44,976 nucleotides of DNA. Source: Lyngbya sp. HA4199-MV5 (GTDB lineage Bacteria; Cyanobacteriota; Cyanobacteriia; Leptolyngbyales; Leptolyngbyaceae). Below, piece after piece: positions 28,319-39,283 of this stretch. The stretch lies in contig JAHHHL010000050.1 of NCBI GenBank assembly GCA_019359375.1, positions 1 to 44,976 on the forward strand, given 5' to 3'. Both the position numbers and the translations under genes were made by a program. Numbering within the stretch: the stretch's first letter is position 1; the number at the start of each line of letters is the position of its first letter. The notes beneath the pieces are model-generated. The model made no database searches and had not been told where the DNA came from. It worked only from the letters and a program-made list of their open reading frames with translations.

Positions 28319-28712
28319 TGCCGCTCGTTATGACTATAAAAAATTCAAAGTTGACGATCGACCTAGCCAAAAACAAACGCGCTTTGAGGTGCGTTGGCGA
28401 GGCTAGCTCCTATCTTAGGCGTTTTATTTTGGTTACGCACAGGTATCGCTGTGCAGCACGGCAGATTGAGCGGTTGAAACGCGATCGTACAGAATTTCGT
28501 TGCCTTTGATACATCTTTTCTCAATTTGGGTTGCTACAAGTAACGTTAAAGCGCACTGTATACATTTTCTTTGCATCACCCTGTCGCTTGCGGCTTTTCT
28601 GTTTGACGAGAGGCGATCGGTGCTCTTTCCTCACTTGATCGATGGCTGATTGGGTTCGTTCAATCTGGATTCGTTCAATGTAGTGAAGGTCAGTGGGTTT
28701 GTTTAACAATTT
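28319..28712. other. Intergenic region upstream of the riboswitch
   Basis: It must carry the promoter for the guanidine riboswitch operon, reading rightwards, and that for the Npun_F0494-family gene, reading leftwards. Direct repeats GGTTCGTTCAATCTGGA / GGATTCGTTCAATGTAG occur near 28652-28683. An 83-codon minus-strand frame here runs into the riboswitch and was not accepted. Confidence 0.4.
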
Positions 28713-28850
28713 AACCGCTTCTAGGGTTCCAGTTTGGGCAAATGGCTCAGGCGATCGGTCCGAGAGAGGCAAGCCATGCTGGGTGAATTTGATTGCATCA
28801 AAGCACTCTACTGGCTACACGGCGGGACAAAAGCCCGGGAGGAACAGGTA
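28713..28850 (+). ncRNA. Guanidine-I (ykkC) riboswitch aptamer
   Basis: The conserved blocks occur in order and at normal spacing: CTAGGGTTCC (28721-28730), GGTCCGAGAG (28757-28766), ACACGGCGGGACAAAAGCCC (28817-28836) and CGGGAGGA. These are the signature of the ykkC class, whose subtype 1 binds guanidinium and turns genes on. The CGGG/CCCG stem around ACAAAAG is the conserved P3-type hairpin. It sits about 210 nt upstream of a substrate-binding-protein gene, the usual context. Subtype 2 ykkC RNAs sense ppGpp or PRPP; the intact aptamer and importer context favour guanidine. Confidence 0.9.
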
Positions 28851-38232: not shown

Positions 38233-38340
38233 GTTGTCGAAAGTCTCACAGAGAAAACAGAGAGCGTCCTAAGAGTGAATCGCGCTTGGTTAGGATCGTA
38301 CTTCAAAAACTGAAGGAAGAGGGCGCGGGAGTTGTTGGTT

Positions 38341-38433
38341 GGAAAAAAAGCAGAAGGCAGAAGGCAGAAGGCAGAGAGTAGAAGGTGGGAGTAGGGAATA
38401 GGGAGTAGGGAATGAGAAGAGAGTTTTGAACTG
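38341..38433. repeat. Heptamer repeats GGCAGAA and GGGAGTAGG-type units
   Basis: Upstream of the permease gene, three GGCAGAA heptamers are followed by GAGTAGGGAATAGG-type units. Confidence 0.85.
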
Positions 38434-38496
38434 CTCCCTCTGCTCCCTCTACTCCCTCTGTTCCCTCTACTCCCTCTGTTCCCTCTACTCCCTCTG
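38434..38496. repeat. Seven tandem 9-bp units (CTCCCTCTR)
   Basis: Units alternate CTCCCTCTG and (C/T)TCCCTCTA, giving an 18-bp higher-order period. It is the most regular microsatellite-like array in the window and lies 100 bp before the DnaA-box array. Confidence 0.9.
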
Positions 38497-38594
38497 CCTG
38501 CTTCCCTACCCACTCCTCACTCCTCACCTCTCACCACGAAAGTGCCAAAACCCTGACTTTTCTAAGGTTTTGCAATTCTTATCCTCCGCCAGAG

Positions 38595-38678
38595 TTTTCC
38601 CCATTCATTCCACAGGCTTTCCACAGGTTTTCCACCGATTTTTGCCAGTTTTCCACAGGTTTGTTATTCTTTTCCACA
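38595..38678 (+). other. Phased DnaA-box array, candidate replication origin (oriC)
   Basis: Six 9-mers of the form YTTTCCACA or one mismatch away lie in one orientation: TTTTCCCCA (38595), CATTCCACA (38606), CTTTCCACA (38617), TTTTCCACC (38628), TTTTCCACA (38649) and TTTTCCACA (38670). Successive starts are 11, 11, 11, 21 and 21 bp apart, so all boxes face the same side of the helix. TTTTCCACA is a cyanobacterial form of the DnaA box. No dnaA or dnaN gene is in the window, and no clear unwinding element is seen, though TTTCTAAGGTTTTGCAATTCTTATC (cut short: 38560-38584) just upstream is moderately AT-rich. Confidence 0.65.
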
Positions 38679-38679
38679 A

Positions 38680-39082
38680 CCTTGAACGGTAGAATCGAGC
38701 TTCTGTGTCTTAAGCAGGGTTTTGGCGATCGCCGCCGCACATCTGAGAAGTATCCCTGAAATGTTAAGTAATGCAACGGGGATCACCCGCAAACATCGAT
38801 TGCTCCGTTAGTCTTTCTCGGCATAATAAGGACTGACGGGGGGGAGCCGCATTGACAAGGCAACCTGCGTCTAGGCACAATGAGGCACTTACCCACACAA
38901 GCGCTTTGAGATCAGCCTGGTAAGGCGATCCTTCCACAGCAAACTGAGCGCCTGCCAGCGTCCTTGCGTCAGTTTGTCGCCATAGCGCTGTATTTGTGCT
39001 GCCTGCTTTTTATCAGGGTGCGACGTTGAATGTATCTTGCCCACATCAATGCCCACTTGCCCTAGCATCACCTGAGGTTCTC
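38680..39082. other. Intergenic region right of the DnaA-box array
   Basis: No gene was accepted. A 60-codon minus-strand frame at 38889-39071 has no recognisable family. A GGGGGGG run lies near 38837. Confidence 0.4.
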
Positions 39083-39283
39083 ATGAGTACGACCGTTAGC
39101 ATCCTGGCAGAGATTCCTGAAGAACTTCATACGGCACTGACTCGGTATCTTGAAACCCATCCCGATTGGGATCAAGATCGTGTCTTTGCGGCTGCATTGT
39201 CCCTCTTTTTGTTGCAAAATGGAGATTGCGATCGCCGAGCTGCACGAGTTTATTTAGACGCTCTGTTTAACCATGCAGTTTAG
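39083..39283 (+). CDS. DUF2811-family small protein
   Basis: A protein of 66 residues from the ATG at 39083 (MSTTVSILAEIPEELHTALTRYLETHPDWDQDRVFAAALSLFL in part). An upstream in-frame start at 38996 adds an unlikely extension. The strand-helix-helix pattern with IPEELHxAL resembles a ribbon-helix-helix DNA-binding fold, and the sequence matches the cyanobacterial DUF2811 family. Function is unknown. It is the first gene to the right of the DnaA-box array. Confidence 0.75.
   Translation: MSTTVSILAEIPEELHTALTRYLETHPDWDQDRVFAAALSLFLLQNGDCDRRAARVYLDALFNHAV

Follow-up and report, generated by a model that had tools for sequence, protein, structure and literature searches.

A helically phased DnaA-box array that accompanies the DUF2811 gene in cyanobacteria, a candidate regulatory module of the DnaA pathway

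Why should a cyanobacterial contig carry a tight row of DnaA boxes beside a small gene of the DUF2811 family, away from dnaA and dnaN? In the window (the whole stretch of 44,976 nucleotides analysed here, contig C32 of a 6.91-Mb genome in 95 contigs), a preliminary description had reported six boxes on one strand, with start-to-start steps of 11, 11, 11, 21 and 21 bp, and had proposed them as a candidate working origin of the chromosome. Their positions and strand were recovered from the sequence, and two of the boxes are exact, three have one mismatch and one has two:

38595-38678, + strand: phased DnaA-box array of six sites, conserved over the class
start 38595, + strand: box 1, TTTTCCCCA
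start 38606, + strand: box 2, CATTCCACA, two mismatches, the sole such site of the six
start 38617, + strand: box 3, CTTTCCACA
start 38628, + strand: box 4, TTTTCCACC
starts 38649 and 38670, + strand: boxes 5 and 6, both exact TTTTCCACA

The box array and the chromosome origin

Clustering of this kind had been called very unlikely by chance, and simulation agreed: at most five same-strand boxes (one mismatch or fewer) fell within 84 bp in the window, whereas the largest such group in 200 first-order Markov sequences was one box in 173 of them and two in 27, never more than two. Over the full window the 9-mer shows no enrichment (15 matches with at most one mismatch against 13.3 expected), so it is the clustering that stands out. 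Enrichment in the whole genome is slight as well, with 889 and 891 matches at this threshold against 852 and 842 for the reversed pattern, and single boxes therefore mean little. The helical phasing was borne out by the relatives, where same-strand box spacings across loci are multiples of about 10.8 bp, with peaks at 11, 21-22, 32-33, 43-44, 54 and 65 bp. The array lies in a stretch of about 850 bp, 38233-39082, which is free of annotated-looking genes, as had been described, and within which short ORFs of less than 100 aa occur. The low-complexity tract mentioned near the array is present too; it is a purine/pyrimidine tract at 38345-38530, between oppC and the array, and the same form is absent from the aligned part of seven relatives. 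An Rfam search at gathering thresholds gave no match at the array. Elsewhere in the window, a guanidine-I riboswitch aptamer was observed at 28710-28843 on the + strand (RF00442, 68 bits).

The assignment of the boxes to DnaA also held, since the 9-mers match those of a cluster on the dnaN side of the same genome, the geometry has a 2-bp gap, and the boxes are decayed in five loci of genomes that lack dnaA (see below). On this sequence evidence the sites are very probably real DnaA boxes. In vivo, E. coli DnaA prefers box pairs 2 or 3 bp apart and was concluded to bind as a dimer (PMC11317965, available text), and the 11-bp start-to-start steps of the array correspond to a gap of exactly 2 bp between boxes.

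The usual layout of a cyanobacterial origin was found on another contig. Cyanobacterial oriC adjoins dnaN in 55 of 68 species (PMC4674748, available portion), and the origin of S. elongatus has been mapped near dnaN (excerpts of PMC7198777). In the genome of the window, an exact-match scan located six exact boxes in both orientations within 196 bp on contig C87, with two one-mismatch sites nearby. This cluster lies upstream of dnaN (match at C87:97068-97448), which is the arrangement given for oriC in the available portion of PMC4674748. Neither dnaA nor dnaN is beside the array.

The relative G064, assembled in one contig of 2,696,255 bp (2.70 Mb), has its dnaN match at 1,620,411-1,620,773 and, adjoining it at 1,620,830-1,621,094, ten box-like sites with at most one mismatch, seven of them exact. 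Its cumulative GC skew, computed from twenty 20-kb samples that cover 15% of the genome, are weak (none beyond 0.03) and include one odd sample of 37% GC, reaches its minimum between the 1.485-Mb and 1.620-Mb samples, beside dnaN (1.620 Mb). The DUF2811 array of this genome is at 773.8 kb (0.774 Mb), about 846 kb from dnaN and the sampled minimum. G019, from the family of the window, gave no regular GC-skew profile. Among the features of a cyanobacterial oriC, the array thus has the TTTTCCACA cluster, lacks an adjacent dnaN and, as judged in G064 only, lacks the GC-skew switch. With a denser, two-orientation cluster at the dnaN side and the G064 skew minimum beside dnaN rather than the array, the proposal of a working origin was not upheld, and the array is probably not the chromosome origin. 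In G051, also of one contig, a dense two-orientation box cluster was observed near the contig start (L157 1680-1876; G051:C1:3080768), about 1.6 Mb from dnaN if the contig is circular and the distance is taken around it; oriC there seems not to follow the dnaN rule.

DUF2811 and its promoter

Conservation of the boxes in close relatives, on which the origin proposal had been made to depend, is strong, but it follows the DUF2811 gene, including its paralogue. DUF2811 was found in all 58 genomes of a first survey, and in all 30 fetched neighbourhoods, among them that of the window, two or more boxes (at most one mismatch) lie upstream of it on the gene's strand. The best 80 of 460 relatives, being the most similar, were kept as named loci, and two of them were dropped for short upstream sequence; in the 78 counted, among which closer relatives are over-represented, at least three boxes within 110 bp lie upstream on the gene's strand in 67 and at least two in all 78. 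Downstream of DUF2811, at least three boxes within 110 bp were found in none of these 78 loci.

A phased same-strand pair is present upstream of DUF2811 in 72 of the 81 loci of the dnaA-positive set, which comprises 77 with dnaA found and four (G004, G005, G007 and G050) too incomplete for the dnaA search, and in 63 of 65 further named loci. Such a pair was found on the opposite strand upstream of DUF2811 in none of the 151 unique loci (164 loci less 13 that were removed, all of them named loci), and in 2 of 1280 control cases (640 windows of 1.2 kb from two genomes, both strands). The nine failures among the 81 are four loci of f30 (G093, G213, G222 and G294), three of the four of f2, one of f14, and L145, where the failure is an effect of where the locus was cut and the three boxes at 21-bp steps are present. 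A breadth sample of 20 loci from 14 family labels gave a phased pair in 16; three of its four f2 loci failed, f2 having the smallest genomes of all groups, as did one locus of f14. The neighbours vary, hemJ being found in 48 of 145 loci and oppC in 13 of 145 (counts that are limited by flank length and include some genomes twice), and the array stays with DUF2811. The genome of the window itself has a second phased array, on contig C91, upstream of a second DUF2811 copy, which thus has its own array as well as its own leader motif and a promoter at 183 bp. In several family labels a single opposite-strand DnaA-like box was observed 44-46 bp past the final box, as if capping the array (L159 (3922), L201-L203, L205 and L218).

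The elements around the array in the window are the following:

38568-38583, + strand: leader motif TTTTGCAATTCTTATC, its start 27 bp upstream of box 1
38689-38697, + strand: conserved block GTAGAATCG (common form AACGnnnGAATCGG) just 3' of the array, from alignments
38775-38811, strand not applicable: inverted-repeat block AACGGGGATC ... CCGTTAG, located in the array-promoter spacer and conserved in an eight-genome alignment
38852-38881, + strand: sigma-70-type promoter of DUF2811, with TTGACA at 38852-38857, an 18-bp spacer and CACAAT at 38876-38881
39083-39283, + strand: DUF2811 gene, 66 aa, stop included in the coordinates (PF10929, E 7.8e-30)

In the second copy (L003), the leader motif precedes TTTTCCCCA at the identical 27-bp offset. 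Its core, AATTCTTAT, occurs on the gene's strand in 89 of the 151 unique upstream regions and on the opposite strand in none of the 151, and the full 16-mer occurs in 11 of 151. The promoter would place the start of DUF2811 transcription near 38888. TTGACA and ACAATG are invariant in eight aligned genomes, and the strict form, TTGACA and CACAATG separated by 16 to 20 bp, was found in 63 of the 151 loci, not found in the other 88, and present in 0 of 3020 base shuffles. In those 63 loci the distance from the last box to TTGACA has a median of 183 bp, a 10th-90th percentile interval of 180-184 bp and a range of 162-196 bp; it is 182 bp in the window and 183 bp in the paralogue, and of the 54 loci that have a phased pair and in which this distance is 180-186 bp, 48 fall at 182-184 bp. 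The promoter itself lies at a variable distance from the gene, about 63 to 417 bp. That boxes and promoter keep a near-constant distance although the sequence between them is poorly conserved suggests a geometry that is functional and not simply inherited. The array shares with DnaA-controlled promoters the position of its boxes, which lie upstream of a promoter in an arrangement kept among relatives. A gapped alignment of 30 upstream regions was informative only in the array and at the gene start, within the part examined. A promoter abutting the array (TAGAAT near 38690) was rejected, as the block keeps no -10 form in relatives. Two other exact box pairs of the window's genome were rejected as regulatory: the pair on C83 lies inside what reads as clpX, and the pair on C4 lies in duplicated spacers of a CRISPR-like repeat array. 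The latter has repeats of about 36 bp; its spacers are of much the same length, and some are duplicated (L005 2000-2560; G000:C4 about 33.0-33.6 kb).

Occurrence of DUF2811 and dnaA

DUF2811 is a cyanobacterial family, found in one of 14 control genomes, namely S. elongatus. The protein alignment comprised 22 of the 30 first-fetched loci and the paralogue. The predicted structure is mainly helical, with helices at residues 13-25, 31-45 and 51-63 in a low-confidence model (pLDDT 67). No NCBIfam model matches DUF2811, no other Pfam family was found below E 0.01 and no PDB sequence below E 0.5, and a Foldseek search with the low-confidence monomer model as query gave no match with E below 3.9.

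The joint occurrence of dnaA and DUF2811 was surveyed in 388 genomes, each at least 95% complete. dnaA (PF08299) is missing from 18 of them; DUF2811 (PF10929) is missing from 13 of these 18 and carries in-frame stops in two of the remaining five. Two of the 370 dnaA-positive genomes, G060 and G159, are without DUF2811; in G159 no hemJ was found either, maybe owing to an assembly gap, and G060 has hemJ. The resulting 2 x 2 table (368, 2, 5 and 13) gives a Fisher p of about 1e-18 if shared ancestry is ignored. At most 16 candidates per genome were scored for DUF2811 in this search, with G060 and G159 scored fully, and for the 18 dnaA-less genomes all candidates were scored, which left the absences unchanged. 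DUF2811 is present in every one of 30 selected dnaA-positive genomes, 27 of which belong to families with dnaA-less members as well.

Of the 18 dnaA-less genomes, 17 retain hemJ, the neighbour of DUF2811 in the window, so gene loss at large does not account for the co-loss. Genus and family labels sort the dnaA-less genomes into about eight groups, some of which may not be independent of one another. Six groups have lost DUF2811 or carry it interrupted, f30 g133 has an interrupted copy in one of its three genomes, and f34 g91 (G158) has an open frame. Three dnaA-less genomes (G158, G320 and G360) keep an open DUF2811 frame, and the gene can therefore outlive dnaA. Cyanobacteria that lose dnaA tend to lose DUF2811, as read from their genomes.

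The array itself was compared in the same way. In the five dnaA-less loci that retain a trace of DUF2811, the gene's strand bears no exact box or a single one, compared with two or three in dnaA-positive genomes under the same genus labels; the contrasts are dnaA-positive G296 versus G300, G320 and G360, and G277 and G381 versus G158. A phased pair is found in one of the five dnaA-less loci (from three groups) versus 72 of the 81 loci of the dnaA-positive set (Fisher p 0.0015, uncorrected). Four dnaA-positive genomes of f30 (G093, G213, G222 and G294) also have decayed arrays, so that decay may reflect relaxed use of DnaA and not the absence of dnaA. DnaA is dispensable in Synechocystis. Three loci of f30 g59, L143, L146 and L148 (G222, G093 and G213), come from dnaA-positive genomes of 3.7-3.8 Mb with an open DUF2811 and decayed arrays.

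Proposed module, alternatives and known systems

We regard the array as the DnaA-binding part of a class-wide regulatory module that would control DUF2811, a putative gene of the DnaA pathway, and give this reading a probability of roughly 0.7. DnaA would bind cooperatively along one face of the helix, anchored at the strong downstream boxes (38649 and 38670), and the weak upstream boxes at 11-bp spacing would fill through DnaA-DnaA contacts at a higher DnaA level or with the ATP form. The resulting oligomer, about 183 bp upstream of the -35 element, would switch or time DUF2811 transcription, which would then follow the amount or the nucleotide state of DnaA. The array is about 180 bp from the -35 element, a long reach for direct contact with RNA polymerase; a loop or a protein on the spacer would be required, and the oligomer would probably act on the promoter by such a loop or by way of the conserved spacer block. 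The tendency of lineages to lose DUF2811 when they lose dnaA, together with the array, suggests that DUF2811 may act in the DnaA pathway, where its most likely role would be that of a feedback partner or a regulator of initiation. We infer from these comparisons that DnaA occupies the boxes and controls transcription; the direction of that control and the role of DUF2811 are likewise inferred. A bolder version, to which we would give slightly less than even odds, is that DUF2811 is an unrecognised, cyanobacterium-specific DnaA partner or regulator in a feedback loop, where the DnaA level or ATP state would be read on the array and DUF2811 would act back on DnaA. If so, the loop could also be what keeps dnaA useful where origins no longer need DnaA.

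The array might instead be a DnaA sink or a switch of the DnaA state, of the type of datA, DARS or the B. subtilis clusters, with its proximity to DUF2811 being secondary; we consider this unlikely, though a phased cooperative array would suit titration. Non-origin box clusters do exist in these genomes, given that in three genomes a group of three exact boxes immediately follows the 3' end of what reads as guaA, a place where no promoter is expected. However, the array follows DUF2811 and its paralogue, on the gene's strand and at a near-constant distance from the promoter where one was found, and this linkage counts against a pure sink, which needs no gene, strand or promoter. The guaA-side triples (G000:C87:22853-22913 (L002 3854-3914), L152 4819-4879 and L154 4728-4777) have TTTTCCACA boxes spaced 21 and 31, or 21 and 20, bp apart and lie between convergent genes in two of the three genomes, which makes them a candidate titration-type DnaA cluster in their own right. 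A similar triple was observed in G039 (L153 5046-5096), not beside a guaA-like gene.

Ribbon-helix-helix proteins bind phased direct repeats, and the predicted helices of DUF2811, which follow a short N-terminal stretch, resemble the layout of that fold. The boxes could then be operators through which the DUF2811 protein regulates its own gene, their likeness to DnaA boxes being secondary. We hold this to be improbable: no match to the ribbon-helix-helix superfamily was found in Pfam, NCBIfam, PDB sequences or, with the low-confidence monomer model (pLDDT 67), Foldseek, three dnaA-less genomes with an open DUF2811 are without the full array (0, 1 and 1 exact boxes), and the 9-mer is identical to that of the dnaN cluster. 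A chromosome origin or secondary origin, for which multiple phased boxes beside a moderately AT-rich conserved motif, their retention in relatives and the use of several origins by some cyanobacteria (PMC7198777, in part) might speak, is similarly improbable, in view of the denser two-orientation cluster at dnaN in the same genome, the sampled skew minimum of G064 beside dnaN and about 846 kb from the array, and the duplication of the element together with DUF2811 and its tie to a promoter.

If the array is the DnaA-binding part of a module for DUF2811, the module would be a candidate DnaA target in most of the dnaA-bearing cyanobacteria sampled, and DUF2811 a small protein that is present or absent largely in step with dnaA over several losses. 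The role of DnaA in dnaA-positive cyanobacteria with DnaA-independent replication (three species tested) was called unclear in the available text of PMC7198777. The literature search found no paper containing the word DUF2811, and literature on DnaA boxes, datA, DARS and ChIP in cyanobacteria, judged mostly by titles and the beginnings of abstracts, did not describe the array; no word starting with cyanobacteri occurs in the text of PMC8203912. As far as these searches go, including the available parts of PMC4674748, PMC7198777, PMC6478999 and PMC11317965, a class-wide phased array that is tied to one gene of unknown function and tends to vanish with dnaA is undescribed.

DnaA as a transcription factor and clusters of DnaA boxes outside origins are both known kinds. 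In Bacillus subtilis, the sda promoter is a DnaA-controlled promoter of the gene for a small checkpoint protein. DUF2811 resembles sda as a gene for a small protein with DnaA boxes upstream of its promoter, an arrangement that would tie expression to the state of replication, and differs from it in the phased 11-bp array about 183 bp from the -35 element, in the tendency to vanish with dnaA, and in being a cyanobacterial protein with no profile match to any other family. With the cyanobacterial oriC beside dnaN (available parts of PMC4674748 and PMC7198777) the array shares the TTTTCCACA boxes, but it has one orientation, lies without an adjacent dnaN or dnaA, and is away from the sampled skew minimum. 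Like datA, DARS1 and DARS2 of E. coli (PMC4585315, available text), it is an intergenic, non-coding box cluster away from oriC; unlike these, it is attached to one gene and its promoter. The closest geometry is that of the DnaA regulon sites of E. coli (PMC11317965, in part), which likewise consist of same-orientation boxes with a 2-bp gap, 11 bp from start to start, whereas the array described here has six positions in register and is conserved class-wide together with one gene.
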